Assembly (NCBI GenBank): GCA_016870475.1
Contig: VGBO01000007.1
Coordinates: 1-62,683 of the forward strand
DNA length: 62,683 nt
Direction of reading: 5' to 3'
From: Actinomycetota bacterium
GTDB lineage: Bacteria; Actinomycetota; Acidimicrobiia; Acidimicrobiales; CAIXPF01
Position 1 is the first letter of the stretch, and the number at the start of each line of letters is the position of its first letter. Made by a program: the position numbers and the translations under genes. Positions 48,252 to 54,874 of the stretch are shown in pieces. A model generated the notes under the pieces. The model searched no databases. It saw nothing but the letters and a program-made list of their open reading frames with translations, and was not told the DNA's origin.

Positions 48252-49598
48252 ATGGAGGCGCCCCGCTTTGGGACCGATGGGGTCCGTGGCGTCGCCAATG
48301 TCGAGGTGACTGCGGAGTTCGCGCTCCTGTTCGCACGCGCCGTCGCTGCAGTGCTCGCGCCGGACGTCGCCCTCATCGGTCGGGACACCCGTCGCAGCGG
48401 CCCGATGCTCGAGGCCGCACTCGCCGCGGGGTTCGCTGCGGAGGGTGTCGACGTGCGTCGGCTCGGCGTCTGCCCGACGCCGACGGTCGCATGGGGTGCG
48501 GCACGTTCGGGCCCGGAACCGAGTCGAGTCGTCGGGGTCGTGGTGTCGGCGTCGCACAACCCCTTCGAGGACAACGGTTTGAAGGTCTTCGCCTCCGGAG
48601 GCCGCAAGCTGACCGATGCCGAACAGACGGCGATCGAGGCGGCGGTCGCAGCCGGCGTGCCGGCGACGTCGACGCGAAGTGGTCGGCACGTCGGGACGAT
48701 CACGTCGGATCCCGAGCTCGTCGAGGCGTGGATCGACTCGGTCACGGGGTCGATCGACGGTCGCCGCCTCGACGGCCTCACCGTGGTCGTCGACGCCGGA
48801 CACGGCGCGGCGTACCGCGTCGCGCCGGAGATCCTGCGCCGCCTCGGCGCCGAGATCGTGGTGCTCGGTGCTGAGCCCGACGGCTGCAACATCAACGAGG
48901 GACGCGGGTCGACCGACACCGCTGCGTTGCGGGATGTCGTGGTAGCCACCGGTGCCCATGCCGGGGTCGCCTTCGACGGCGATGCCGACCGGCTCGTCGC
49001 GGTCGACGCCGACGGCCGGGAGATCGACGGCGATCAACTCCTCGCCATGTGTGCGATCGATCGTTCGGAGCGCGGGCTGCTCCGCGGGGAGACGGTCGTC
49101 GCAACGGTCATGGCGAACCTCGGGCTTCGCATCGGGATGGCGGCCCGTGGGATCACGGTGCGGGAGACCCCCGTCGGCGACCGACACGTCCTCGAGGCGC
49201 TCGAGGCCGGTGGTTGGACGCTCGGGGGGGAGCAGTCCGGTCACCTCGTGTTCCGGGACCTCGCCACGACCGGCGACGGGGTGTTGAGCGCAGTGCAGGT
49301 GCTCGATCTCCTCGCTCGGAGCGGTCGGACGATCGCCGAGCTCGCCGACACGGCCATGCATCGGCTTCCCCAGGTCCTGCGGAACGTCACCGTGCAGCGG
49401 GACGCGGCCGAGGTCGTCGCGGCGCTCCGCGCCGAGATCGACGTCGTGGCGGCGCGGCTCGGGACGCAGGGGCGCGTGCTCGTGCGGCCGTCGGGGACTG
49501 AGCCGGTGGTGCGGGTGATGGCCGAGGCCGCGGACCTCGACACCGCCACCGCAGCGGTGGCCGAGCTCGTCGCCGCAGTGGAACGCGTCGTGGGATGA
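48252..49598 (+). CDS. glmM: Phosphoglucosamine mutase
   Basis: A 448-residue enzyme that converts glucosamine-6-phosphate to glucosamine-1-phosphate for UDP-GlcNAc and peptidoglycan. The phosphoserine loop VVSASHNPFEDNG is near residue 97-109, the Mg site FDGDADR near 238-244, the sugar-specificity loop GEQSGH near 326-331 and the phosphate site RPSGTEPVVRVM near the end. ATG 48252; the upstream frame overlaps rpsI as a shadow. It stands directly before the glmS-like gene, so the two consecutive steps are encoded together. Confidence 0.97.
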   Translation: MEAPRFGTDGVRGVANVEVTAEFALLFARAVAAVLAPDVALIGRDTRRSGPMLEAALAAGFAAEGVDVRRLGVCPTPTVAWGAARSGPEPSRVVGVVVSASHNPFEDNGLKVFASGGRKLTDAEQTAIEAAVAAGVPATSTRSGRHVGTITSDPELVEAWIDSVTGSIDGRRLDGLTVVVDAGHGAAYRVAPEILRRLGAEIVVLGAEPDGCNINEGRGSTDTAALRDVVVATGAHAGVAFDGDADRLVAVDADGREIDGDQLLAMCAIDRSERGLLRGETVVATVMANLGLRIGMAARGITVRETPVGDRHVLEALEAGGWTLGGEQSGHLVFRDLATTGDGVLSAVQVLDLLARSGRTIAELADTAMHRLPQVLRNVTVQRDAAEVVAALRAEIDVVAARLGTQGRVLVRPSGTEPVVRVMAEAADLDTATAAVAELVAAVERVVG

Positions 49599-49663: not shown

Positions 49664-52600
49664 ATGTGCGGCATCATCGCAGTGCTACGCCGCCGCGCCG
49701 AGCGCCCGGCACCGTTGGCGACGGAGATCCTCGAGCTGGTAGCCGATGCTGGGCGGGAGCTCGCCGCAGAGGTCGCCGGGGTCGCTGCGCTCGCCGCGGC
49801 GTCCGCTGCGCTGCGCCGCGCCGACGAGCTGCTCCGAGGAGCCCCCGGGGCGGAGCTGCTCGCCCGCGATCGCACGGTCGTCGACCTGATGGCCTCCCGA
49901 CTCGACGATCTCCTGGGTCGGCTCGACGAGCTCGACGACGACCTCGACGGTCTCGAGCAGCTCGGACCCGAGGAGCTCGAGCGGCGCAGCGCGCGCGCCG
50001 TCGAGGTGCGCGACGTCCTGTGGGCGCTGCGCAACGACCGGCTGCGCACCGCCCGGGAGGTCGCTGCGCTGGCCGGCCCGACGGCGACGTCGTCGGCGCT
50101 CGCCGCGTATCTGGCTGTGCAGGAGGCGCTCTCCGGACTCGACCGGCTCGAGGTGCGCGGCCGGGACTCCGCGGGCGTCCACGTCTACGTGCGCCGTCCC
50201 GGCATCGACCTGTCGTCGCCGACGGTCGCCGCGGCCGTCGCTGCCCGGTCCACCGACCCACTCTTCGGTTCGGGTTCGGTGCGCGTCCTCGGGGACGTGA
50301 TCGGCTTCGTCTACAAGGCCGCCGCCGAGATCGGCGAGCTCGGCGACAACGTCCGGGCGATACGGGCCGAGATCGTCGCCGACGATCTGTTCCGTCAGGC
50401 GGTGTCCGGTCCCGATGCCGAGGTCGCCGTGCTCGGACACACGCGGTGGGCGTCGGTCGGCATCATCTCGGCCGCGAACGCCCACCCGCTCGACGCCGAA
50501 GAGGTCGGACGGCCGACCGGGGTCCACGTGACGGCGGCACTCAACGGGGACGTCGACAACTTCGCCGACCTCAAGGCCACCCACGGTCTGCGGATCCGCC
50601 CCGAGATCACCACCGACGCCAAGGTGATCCCGACGCTCGTCGCCCGAGCGATCGAGGGTGGGAACGACGTGGTCGAGGCGTTCCGCCGTTCCGTCGAGCA
50701 GATGGAGGGATCGGTGGCGATCGCCGCCCAGATCGCCGGGGTGCCGGACCGACTGCATCTGGCGCTGCGCGGGAGCGGGCAGGCGCTCTACGTCGGGTTC
50801 GCCGAGGACCTCTACGTCGTGGCGAGTGAGCCGTACGGGCTCGTGGAACTCGCCGACCGGTACCTCCGCCTCGACGGCGAGACGCCGTCGGATCCCGGGA
50901 ATCCCACGGGAAGTCGTGGGCAGGTGGTGGTCCTCGACGGCTGCGCCGCAGGGACGCTCCACGGTGTGGAGCGTCGGTCCTTCGACGGCTCGGTCCTGCC
51001 GGTCGCAGCGACCGAGCTCGCCGCGACCCAGATCACGACGCGCGACATCGACCGCGGCAGCTTTCCGCACTTCCTGCTGAAGGAGATCTCCGAGTCCCCG
51101 AGCTCGTTCCGCAAGACGTTGCGCGGGAAGCTCCTCGGACGCGACGACCGTCTGCACGTCGAGGTCGGGCACGAGGCACTCCCCCGGACGGTGCGGGACG
51201 CGTTGCGCAGCGGCGAGATCCGTCGCGTCTGTGTGATCGGGCAGGGGACGGCGGCGGTCGCCGGCCAGGCGGTCGCCCTTGCGCTCGGTCGGGCACTCGG
51301 TGGCGTCGGCCCCGTGGTCGAGTGCCTGCCGGCCACCGAGCTCTCGGCCTTCCACCTCCGATCGGACCTCGGGGACACGCTCGTCGTTGCGATCAGTCAG
51401 TCGGGCACGACGACGGACACCAACCGCACCGTCGACCTGGTTCGGGCGCGCGGTGCACGTGTGCTCGCGATCGTGAACCGGAGGAACTCCGACCTCACCG
51501 ACCGTGCAGACGGTGTGCTCTACACCTCCGACGGGCGCGACGTCGAGATGTCGGTCGCGTCGACGAAGGCGTTCTACGCCCAGGTGGCCGCCGGGTTCCT
51601 GCTCGCCCAGGCGATCGCCGAGGCGGTCGATCCCGCTCGTGACGGATCGGACCCTGCAACCCAGGAACTCCTCGTCGGCCTGGCTCGTCTGCCCGATTGC
51701 ATGGAGGCGGTTCTCGAAGGGCGCGCCGAGATCGCGGCTGCGGCTCGACGCTTCGCGCCGCAGCGACGTCACTGGGCCATCGTCGGCAACGGACCGAATC
51801 GCATCGCTGCGGCGGAGGTGCGGATCAAGCTGTCCGAACTCTGTTACAAGTCCATCGCTGCGGACGTCACCGAGGACAAGAAGCACATCGATCTGTCCTC
51901 GGAGCCACTGATCCTCGTGTGCGCGACCGGGCTCGTCGGCTCGACCGCCGACGACGTCGCCAAGGAGGTCGGGATCTACCGGGCGCACCGGGCTGCACCG
52001 ATCGTGGTCACGTCGGAGAGCTCCGTCCCGTTCCCCGCGGCGCTGGCGGAGATCCGCGTCCCCGACACGCACCCGCTGCTCGCGTTCGTCCTGTCCGCGA
52101 TGGCCGGGCACCTCTTCGGCTACGAGGCGGCGCTCGCCATCGACGCTCTCGCCGTGCCCCTCCGGACGGCTCGTGCGGTGATCGAGGCGGCGATCACCGA
52201 CGGCGCCGACGCCGATGCGCTGATCGCGCTCCGGGAGCGCTTCGAAGCGCCAGCCGCACAGTTCTTCGCCGACCTCCGTGCGGGGGAGCACAACGGACAG
52301 CTCGACGCCTCCACTGCTGCTCGCCTCGCCTCGCTGTTCCGCTACGCGACCGGGGTCGTCCCCCTCGACAGCTACCAGCTCGAGTGGGGCAAGGTGGGCA
52401 CGCCTGCGGTCGTCGTGGAGGACCTGACCCAGGCGCTGACGCAGGCGATCGACGAGCTCACGAGACCGGTCGACGCGATCAAGCACCAGGCGAAGACGGT
52501 CACCGTGGGGATCTCCCGCTCGGACGAGACCCTCCTCGAGACCGGGCTCGTCCGGGCGGCGCTCGACGCCGGCGCGGGGCGCGACCGGCTCAGCTACGAG

Positions 52601-53092
52601 ACGCTGCGCACGCTCGCCGCGTTGTCGCCGCTCGTCGGGGAGACCATCGGGTTCACCCGGTACCGGATCGAGCCGGGACCGTCGTCCGACGATCATCGGG
52701 TCACCGTGGTCGACCGGGGCGGGATCGCGCTCGACCTGCCGCTGCGGACCGAACGCGACCCGCGACTGCGGGGGACGAAGCGGCTCGTGGCCTCCGAGCA
52801 GAAGGTGCTCGTGGGGCGGGGCCGGGCGGACGGCAGGCTCATCGTCATCGTCCCGGAGGTGAAGGACGGTGATTCGGTGGGGATCACCCTGCTGCACGTC
52901 CGCTTCGTCGACGCCCTGCCCGTCGCAACGCTGCGCACGGCGCTGACGATGTACCGCAACCGTTTCCGAGCGATCGAGGCGGCGGTGACGGAGACCGAGC
53001 CGACCTTCCGCGACGACCTGCTCTCGACGGTTCCGCTGGACGAGCTGTTCACCGTGCCGGTCGCGACGCTCGCCGACCGCTGGCGGCCCTGA
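49664..53092 (+). CDS. glmS: Oversized glutamine-fructose-6-phosphate aminotransferase (GlmS-like, 1142 aa)
   Basis: GlmS makes glucosamine-6-phosphate from fructose-6-phosphate and glutamine. The usual length is about 610; this one has 1142 residues. The glutaminase domain starts with Cys2 (MCGIIAVL), then a helical insert of about 150 residues (9-158), then RGRDSAG at 165-171, HTRWA at 259-263, LNGDVDNF at 293-300 and TDAKVI at 317-322. The first SIS domain has SQSGTTTDT (579-587) and VASTKAF (631-637). In the second, Lys722, Glu725 and His741 match the isomerase residues Lys485, Glu488 and His504 of E. coli. A segment resembling the catalytic tail, KTVTV, lies at 944-948, after about 100 extra residues, and about 195 more residues follow it. 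GAAGGAGG lies before the ATG. All catalytic parts seem present, so activity is likely, but the role of the added parts is unknown. Confidence 0.85.
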   Translation: MCGIIAVLRRRAERPAPLATEILELVADAGRELAAEVAGVAALAAASAALRRADELLRGAPGAELLARDRTVVDLMASRLDDLLGRLDELDDDLDGLEQLGPEELERRSARAVEVRDVLWALRNDRLRTAREVAALAGPTATSSALAAYLAVQEALSGLDRLEVRGRDSAGVHVYVRRPGIDLSSPTVAAAVAARSTDPLFGSGSVRVLGDVIGFVYKAAAEIGELGDNVRAIRAEIVADDLFRQAVSGPDAEVAVLGHTRWASVGIISAANAHPLDAEEVGRPTGVHVTAALNGDVDNFADLKATHGLRIRPEITTDAKVIPTLVARAIEGGNDVVEAFRRSVEQMEGSVAIAAQIAGVPDRLHLALRGSGQALYVGFAEDLYVVASEPYGLVELADRYLRLDGETPSDPGNPTGSRGQVVVLDGCAAGTLHGVERRSFDGSVLPVAATELAATQITTRDIDRGSFPHFLLKEISESPSSFRKTLRGKLLGRDDRLHVEVGHEALPRTVRDALRSGEIRRVCVIGQGTAAVAGQAVALALGRALGGVGPVVECLPATELSAFHLRSDLGDTLVVAISQSGTTTDTNRTVDLVRARGARVLAIVNRRNSDLTDRADGVLYTSDGRDVEMSVASTKAFYAQVAAGFLLAQAIAEAVDPARDGSDPATQELLVGLARLPDCMEAVLEGRAEIAAAARRFAPQRRHWAIVGNGPNRIAAAEVRIKLSELCYKSIAADVTEDKKHIDLSSEPLILVCATGLVGSTADDVAKEVGIYRAHRAAPIVVTSESSVPFPAALAEIRVPDTHPLLAFVLSAMAGHLFGYEAALAIDALAVPLRTARAVIEAAITDGADADALIALRERFEAPAAQFFADLRAGEHNGQLDASTAARLASLFRYATGVVPLDSYQLEWGKVGTPAVVVEDLTQALTQAIDELTRPVDAIKHQAKTVTVGISRSDETLLETGLVRAALDAGAGRDRLSYETLRTLAALSPLVGETIGFTRYRIEPGPSSDDHRVTVVDRGGIALDLPLRTERDPRLRGTKRLVASEQKVLVGRGRADGRLIVIVPEVKDGDSVGITLLHVRFVDALPVATLRTALTMYRNRFRAIEAAVTETEPTFRDDLLSTVPLDELFTVPVATLADRWRP

Positions 53093-53093
53093 C

Positions 53094-53516
53094 GTGGGCG
53101 GGGCGGATGCCACGGTCGGCGCGCTCGCCGAGGTGATCGGCGTCGGCGTCGACGTGGTCGACATCGACCGGTTCCGTCGGGTGCTCCGTCGGCGACCACG
53201 GCTCGCAGATCGCCTGTTCACCGACGCGGAGCGGGCGTACGCGGCGCGGCAGGCCGACCCGACCCGACGTCTCGCAGCGCGGTTCGCCGCAAAGGAGGCG
53301 GTGCTCAAGTCGATGGGCGTCGGCCTGGGGGCCTGCGCGCTGCGGGACATCGAGGTCGTGCGTGACGAGGCCGGTCGCCCGTCGGTCGCCCTCTGCCGTT
53401 CGGCGGCGGGCCTCGCCGATCGCCACGGTGTCGGGGGCTGGCACCTGAGCCTCAGCCACAGCGATCTCGTCGCGACGGCGACCGCCGTCGCGGTGCGGGC
53501 GGTGGCGCGACCGTGA
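53094..53516 (+). CDS. acpS: Holo-[acyl-carrier-protein] synthase
   Basis: A 140-residue phosphopantetheinyl transferase that activates acyl carrier protein for fatty acid synthesis. It has IGVGVDVVDIDRFRRVL with the Mg-binding Asp, RFAAKEAVLKSMGVG with the Glu, and WHLSLSHSD. GTG 53094 lies 1 base after the glmS stop, and the end overlaps the next gene by 4 bases. This begins a run of overlapping genes to tsaD. Confidence 0.95.
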   Translation: MGGADATVGALAEVIGVGVDVVDIDRFRRVLRRRPRLADRLFTDAERAYAARQADPTRRLAARFAAKEAVLKSMGVGLGACALRDIEVVRDEAGRPSVALCRSAAGLADRHGVGGWHLSLSHSDLVATATAVAVRAVARP

Positions 53517-54874
53517 TCCCCGTCGTGACCCCGGCGGAGATGGCGGCGATCGACGCCGTGGCGCCCGAACCGTTCGAGGTGCTCGTCGAACGTGCCGGTG
53601 CGGCGGTCGCCCGTCGGGCCCGGGCGTTGCTCGGCGGCACCTACGGGCGGCGCGTGGTCGTGATCGCCGGGCGTGGTCACAACGGGGACGACGGACGCGT
53701 GGCGGCCCGACGACTCGCAGCGATCGGTGTGAAGGTGCGTGTGGTCGCGCCGGGGGAGCCGCTGCCGAGCGGCGACATCGACCTCGTCGTCGATGCGGCC
53801 TACGGCACCGGGTACGTCGCCCGTGGCCCGCTCGTCGACGTCCCGACCGGTGGGGCGCCCGTCCTCGCCGTGGACATCCCCTCCGGGGTCTGCGGGCTCA
53901 CGGGCGTAGCGTCGGAGGGCACGCTCGCAGCGACTGAGACGATCACCTTCGCTGCGCTCAAGCCGGGGCTGCTGTTGCACCCGGGTCGCTCGCTCGCAGG
54001 GCGGGTCGTGGTCGCCGACATCGGTCTGTCGACCACGTCGGCCCGGGCGTTCGTCGTCACCGGCGACGACGTCGCCGCATGGCTGCCGACCCGGCCGGTC
54101 GATGCCCACAAGTGGCGGACGGCATGCCTCGTCGTCGCCGGGGCACCCGGCATGGTCGGGGCGGCGGCGTTGTGCACCGCGGCGGCGTTCCGTGCGGGCG
54201 CCGGCTACGTCCGACTCGTCGCGCCGGAGGGCACGGGGTCGCACGGGCTCCCGCTCGAGGCGGTCGTCACGTCCCGACCGGTCGAGCGGTGGGCGGCGGA
54301 CGCGCTGCATGACGTCGACCGCTTCGCCGCCGCCGTGATCGGCCCCGGTCTCGGCCGGGCTGCGACGGCGCGAGCCGACGTCGTGGCGTTCCTCGCCGGG
54401 TGCCCGGTCCCTGCCGTCGTCGACGGTGACGCGCTCGCGGCGTTGGGGCCGGACGTCGCCGAGGTGGTGCGGCGTCGGGTCGCTCCGACCGTGCTCACTC
54501 CCCACGACGGCGAGTTCGCGGCGCTGACCGGCGGTCCGCCCGGCGCCGACCGGCTCGAAGCCGCCCGGTCGCTCGCTGCGGAGACCGGCGCGGTGGTGCT
54601 GTTGAAGGGGCCGACGACGGTGGTGGCGGCGCCGGACGGTTCCGTCGCGCTGTCGTTGCGGGGGGACGAGCGGCTCGCCACCGCCGGGACCGGTGACGTG
54701 CTCGCCGGCGTGTGCGGTGCCCTGCTCGCACGCGGTGTCGAGGCGTGCCGTGCGGCGGCGGCCGCTGCGTGGTTGCACGGGGCGGCGGCCGAAGCCGGTC
54801 CGCCCGCCGGGCTCGTCGCGAGCGATCTCCTCGACCTGTTGCCCACGGTGGTCCCGACGAGGAGCGCGACGTGA
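53513..54874 (+). CDS. nnr: Bifunctional NAD(P)HX epimerase/dehydratase
   Basis: A 453-residue repair enzyme for hydrated NAD(P)H. Residues 1-~195 form the epimerase (YjeF_N) domain with GRGHNGDDGRVAARRLA and AVDIPSGVCGLTG; residues ~205-453 form the ADP-dependent dehydratase with IGPGLGRAATARADVV, TPHDGEFAALTG and LATAGTGDVLAGVCGALL. The first motif normally reads GxGNNGGDG; here it is GRGHNGDDG, so the epimerase half may be weak. The GTG overlaps the acpS stop and the end overlaps alr by 4 bases. Confidence 0.94.
   Translation: MIPVVTPAEMAAIDAVAPEPFEVLVERAGAAVARRARALLGGTYGRRVVVIAGRGHNGDDGRVAARRLAAIGVKVRVVAPGEPLPSGDIDLVVDAAYGTGYVARGPLVDVPTGGAPVLAVDIPSGVCGLTGVASEGTLAATETITFAALKPGLLLHPGRSLAGRVVVADIGLSTTSARAFVVTGDDVAAWLPTRPVDAHKWRTACLVVAGAPGMVGAAALCTAAAFRAGAGYVRLVAPEGTGSHGLPLEAVVTSRPVERWAADALHDVDRFAAAVIGPGLGRAATARADVVAFLAGCPVPAVVDGDALAALGPDVAEVVRRRVAPTVLTPHDGEFAALTGGPPGADRLEAARSLAAETGAVVLLKGPTTVVAAPDGSVALSLRGDERLATAGTGDVLAGVCGALLARGVEACRAAAAAAWLHGAAAEAGPPAGLVASDLLDLLPTVVPTRSAT

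Follow-up and report, generated by a model that had tools for sequence, protein, structure and literature searches.

The locus analysed here raises the question of whether a protein of 1142 residues, in which the parts of GlmS are interrupted by added segments and its catalytic tail lies inside the chain, can serve as the GlmS of its cell and, if so, what the added parts do. Synthesis of UDP-GlcNAc and peptidoglycan starts with GlmS, and the coupling of its two active sites has been studied for a long time. The best reading of our data is that the long protein is the only GlmS of the organism, in an architecture not described before. In the open-access literature we found no long, acidimicrobial or PAS-bearing GlmS, although an earlier description elsewhere is possible. 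An essential housekeeping enzyme would have been swapped in place for an architecture that the standard family model misses at its cut-off. An internal, putatively mobile C-tail that carries a sensor-like domain offers a natural experiment on the role of the tail, and this lineage also bears on how an amidotransferase can be regulated.

Organization of the long glmS gene

In the window, that is, the whole stretch of 62,683 nucleotides analysed, the gene runs on the plus strand from an ATG at 49664 to a stop codon at 53092 as a single unbroken frame of 1142 codons. The ATG at 49664 is the first start codon past an upstream stop, and Cys2 therefore lies directly after the initiator Met. The gene, its parts and its neighbours are as follows:

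48252..49598, plus strand: glmM, upstream neighbour, with a start inferred from MEAPRFGTDG; adjoins both long and normal glmS
49664..53092, plus strand: long GlmS gene, 1142 codons plus stop
49664..49690, plus strand: residues 1-9, opening strand (3-9 in the model) that carries the nucleophile Cys2; the aligned sequences share an invariant MCGI
49691..50089, plus strand: residues 10-142, helical insert 1 (133 aa); absent from canonical GlmS, no Pfam family
50090..50878, plus strand: residues 143-405, remaining glutaminase domain (RGRDSAG, HTRWA, NGDVDN, TTDAK), from sequence comparison
51044..51643, plus strand: residues 461-660, first SIS domain (SQSGTT, VASTKAF)
51644..52153, plus strand: residues 661-830, second SIS domain (KLSE, KKH)
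52154..52459, plus strand: residues 831-932, second helical insert of about 100 aa, separating SIS2 from the tail, from the alignment and models
52460..52519, plus strand: residues 933-952, internal C-tail; A943 and K944 correspond to E. coli A602 and K603
52589..52912, plus strand: residues 976-1083, predicted PAS-like domain (model pLDDT about 95; Foldseek matches)
52913..53089, plus strand: residues 1084-1142, C-terminal helices, from the models
53094..53516, plus strand: acpS, downstream neighbour, named from its own sequence

The earlier note, made from this DNA alone, had described a GlmS of 1142 residues with three added segments, and this description is confirmed: the gene encodes a complete, divergent GlmS in one frame. 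Its segment sizes are roughly correct: about 100 residues lie before the tail, about 190 follow KTVTV where the note had some 195, and the first insert has 133 residues and not 150. Including a small extra insert in the glutaminase domain, the added parts comprise residues 10-142, about 178-211, 831-932 and everything past 949. In the model, the helices of insert 1 span residues 19-34, 40-57, 59-68, 70-96 and 102-137. Neither a glmS ribozyme nor any other Rfam RNA was found around the gene. An antisense open frame of 1697 aa (49685-54778, minus strand) lies opposite the whole glmS-acpS-nnr stretch; the DNA being so GC-rich, this frame is most likely an effect of codon usage and not a gene.

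Enzyme identity and replacement of canonical GlmS

In a profile search the protein matched a class II glutaminase and the SIS domain, and its best NCBIfam equivalent was GlmS (TIGR01135; E 2e-65), with 221 bits against a curated cut-off of 418 bits. Since the other long forms listed reach about 254 bits at most, we regard the long forms as a separate subfamily. Identity to canonical GlmS in the core is 26% over 556 columns (residues 156-825). Residues kept, in E. coli numbering, are C1, R26, R73, W74, N98, G99, D123, T302, S347, Q348, S349, T352, V399, S401, K485, E488, H504, A602 and K603, all invariant in an alignment of 55 long sequences. The note's claim that all glutaminase and isomerase residues of GlmS were present thus holds for most of them and fails for four, with T76 replaced by Ser, H77 by Val, C300 by Gln and S303 by Ala. 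In the numbering of the long protein, the invariant residues of the glutaminase are C2, R165, R261, W262, N294, G295 and D318 (n = 55), those of the two-SIS isomerase S578, Q579, S580, T583, S633, K722, E725 and H741, and the tail retains an invariant A943-K944 (Ala602-Lys603), although in an internal position.

The long form therefore has in common with canonical GlmS and GFAT (E. coli GlmS, human GFAT-1) an N-terminal Cys glutaminase, two SIS domains, nearly all catalytic residues and the AK(S/T)VTV tail, and with canonical GlmS of actinobacteria the place beside glmM. It differs from them in its length (1142 versus about 610 aa), in its two helical inserts, in a score below the TIGR01135 cut-off and in an internal tail, where Gly949 stands in place of the terminal Glu and a PAS-like domain follows.

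No second GlmS was found in the window, as the earlier note had stated, or elsewhere in the 98.7%-complete source genome, where a glmS of normal length, proposed as a check on the assignment, was searched for and not found. The only other match to the GlmS model there is a separate 511-codon gene with the glutaminase half alone, as would be expected for PurF. A search for nagB, as an alternative route, gave no match in this genome.

Among 149 genomes of the class Acidimicrobiia, 80 carry a canonical GlmS above the cut-off, 64 a long one and none both, and in the other five neither form is complete (Fisher p 1e-36, computed ignoring shared ancestry). Each family in this sample is uniformly long or uniformly canonical. 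In many Acidimicrobiia, then, GlmS is almost double its normal size. A few genomes from other classes (G154, G182, G240, G258, G293 and G302) have the long form too, all of them without a canonical copy. Both forms occurred in G175 alone, a 6.5 Mb bin with 5% contamination; its long copy is without the usual neighbours, its G+C is not clearly different, and it may belong to a foreign contig. The long glmS of G154 and of G302, two bins that do not belong to the class, is split inside the gene between two contigs, which may reflect a strain mixture of two glmS types. Of the 412 confirmed relatives in a contig scan, the best 80 bear titles that mostly name Acidimicrobiia or Actinomycetota, a few of them evidently mistaken; the sampling in depth covered Actinomycetota, and the long form may occur in other phyla as well. 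No plasmid record covered 80% of it. The long GlmS of the 1.8 Mb genome G009 (family f26) sits at the end of a very long branch and keeps all added parts.

Both forms occupy a common slot, rplM-rpsI-glmM-[glmS]-acpS-nnr-alr-tsaE, in which the neighbours were named from their own sequences, without profile search. Within family f74, the neighbours in G230 (canonical) and G302 (long, with the gene broken across two contigs) show 63-90% protein identity, whereas glmS differs. The long form thus takes the chromosomal place of the ordinary GlmS, and is for this reason probably a variant of an essential enzyme with different regulation. In a quick tree of the neighbouring genes, the long or canonical label needs seven changes. 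In an equally quick tree of long GlmS, the copies from outside the class fall into more than one group, and the f54, f74 and f77 copies cluster with members of the class from families f8, f11 and f17, suggesting that the long glmS passed from class to class. The long gene of G293 stands at another place, beside genes resembling map and recN.

The mutual exclusion with normal glmS, the common slot, the catalytic residues and the predicted fold support the identity of the protein, which we consider well supported by computation; the protein is very probably the GlmS of the cell, with the activity predicted for it.

The internal tail and the added domains

Canonical GlmS proteins of the compared genomes end in D.PRNLAK[STV]VTVE. 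The corresponding motif of the long form, R.[VI]DAIKHQAKTVTVG, was present in 78 of 82 long sequences, and there the chain runs on past it. Conservation along the protein peaks at residues 933-952, where 16 of 20 positions are invariant. In GFAT the tail is a mobile element with residues of both active sites (PMC8041777), and in GlmS it forms, together with Trp74, a channel that prevents the leakage of ammonia (PMC7948480).

An AlphaFold2 model of the full-length protein, built on the 55-sequence alignment, has a mean pLDDT of 87 and a pTM of 0.78, and human GFAT-1 and E. coli GlmS were the top Foldseek matches of the whole model. Values of pLDDT below 50 are restricted to the tail (937-953) and to a loop at 729-741, which bears the equivalent of His504. 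Such low values are in keeping with mobile parts, while being no proof of motion.

Modelled alone, the last 307 residues reach a pLDDT of 90, with about 95 for the final domain. The predicted topology of this domain is beta-beta-alphas-beta-beta-beta, as in a PAS domain, with strands at 991-1003 and 1012-1020, helices at 1021-1045 and strands at 1049-1052, 1059-1067 and 1070-1081. The best PDB match of these 307 residues in Foldseek was L-GDH180, the large glutamate dehydrogenase of Mycobacterium smegmatis (7jsr; E 3e-4 over 230 columns, the aligned part of 7jsr not being displayed), the only one to reach E 0.001; Cache, GAF and LOV/PAS sensor domains followed at E 0.003-0.1. By sequence, no Pfam profile, for PAS or otherwise, matched the C-terminal domain up to E 10, and comparison of the added parts with Pfam and PDB sequences gave nothing significant and no family for any of them. 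PAS domains often escape detection by sequence (PMC8175468). We conclude that the last domain is quite probably PAS-like, as judged from its model. Invariant charged residues in it, such as R999, R1028, K1039, D1056, R1058 and E1065, could form a pocket. One match to the C-terminal domain, from genome G130, lies within a methylmalonyl-CoA mutase-like ORF and was taken as chance.

L-GDH180 is also an enzyme of nitrogen metabolism extended by PAS-type and helical modules, and its authors propose the role of a metabolic sensor for the ACT/PAS segment (PMC8175468). Its catalytic part, however, is unrelated to GlmS, and its modules are at the N-terminus. Sequence similarity between L-GDH and the C-terminal domain of long GlmS was at chance level both in hhalign and in a home-made profile alignment. 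Homology between the two gained no support from sequence, and motifs that appeared common to them by eye were not relied on. With PAS, Cache and GAF sensors, such as the sensor of sporulation kinase D and LOV domains, the last domain shares its predicted topology, at weak structural scores and with no sequence match, and in long GlmS it is not mounted on a kinase or receptor.

Possible control through the tail and rival explanations

We infer an active enzyme that senses a ligand and is controlled through its tail. Like ordinary GlmS, it would make glucosamine-6-phosphate from fructose-6-phosphate and glutamine, with Cys2 releasing ammonia, the SIS domains aminating the sugar and the tail, with Lys944, closing over both active sites. 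Instead of being a free chain end, this tail would be held between the helical insert before it and the PAS-like domain after it. Binding of a small ligand or a partner by the PAS-like domain may then shift the tail or alter its mobility, and in this way switch how glutamine hydrolysis is coupled to amination. No such mode of control was found described for GlmS or GFAT in the open-access literature. That the last domain regulates through the tail seems to us slightly favoured over its not doing so, and the whole proposal of a sole GlmS with a sensor-like domain acting on a mobile tail is, with some reserve, the explanation we favour. A broader scenario, in which a lineage swapped its GlmS for an allosteric version with a metabolite-sensing PAS-like domain acting directly on the tail, and the gene also moved into other actinobacterial classes, is put forward tentatively.

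A regulatory or partner-binding module had already been suggested in the earlier note. This suggestion fits our results in that the identity as GlmS is supported and a PAS-like fold, of a sensor kind, is predicted for the last module. Adjacency to glmM, also invoked there, is uninformative about the extra parts and lends no weight to a putative docking of GlmM, because the ordinary glmS of sister genomes adjoins glmM as well. Putative feedback by UDP-GlcNAc on long GlmS, the note's other example, is possible.

Alternatively, the additions, helical inserts and PAS-like domain alike, might be purely structural, holding a particular oligomer together or sealing the ammonia channel with no signal bound. 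Two of the three additions are indeed plain helical inserts, and every complete long form examined has all added parts, with no intermediate seen. A PAS-like fold placed right after the mobile tail nevertheless suits regulation, as does the pocket that its invariant charged residues could form, and we consider a structural role unlikely, although worth keeping in mind.

More distant from our reading is a protein that is not GlmS at all, but an amidotransferase for another phosphosugar in a cell that obtains GlcN6P from elsewhere. The core identity of only about 26%, the score below the GlmS cut-off and the four active-site substitutions would agree with this. Against it are the perfect alternation with canonical GlmS in the same slot beside glmM, the lack of nagB in the source genome and the retention of the tail and isomerase residues, which together make it improbable. 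A few relatives have the gene split at contig ends or mid-gene (G114, G076 and G081), which could recall a fusion of separate genes by frameshift or misassembly; nothing of the kind is seen in the window. Dozens of independent genomes have full-length frames of the same architecture, among them genomes in a single contig, such as G002 and Aquihabitans sp. G128, so that an artefact, of negligible probability, is already refuted by the relatives. Returning to the sole GlmS with a sensor-like domain, its single-copy replacement of the canonical form, the conservation of catalytic residues and tail, and the predicted folds are all direct outcomes of the computation.

A minor observation concerns GlmU-like proteins of 385 aa (G000 contig 20, L185 524-1681) and 361 aa (G034, L186 973-2058). 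In both, the match to the 452-position GlmU model stops at about 341-344, and the acetyltransferase half apparently lacks its end; acetylation may be done by an enzyme other than this shortened protein. The same shortened match occurs in G051, a genome with normal GlmS.
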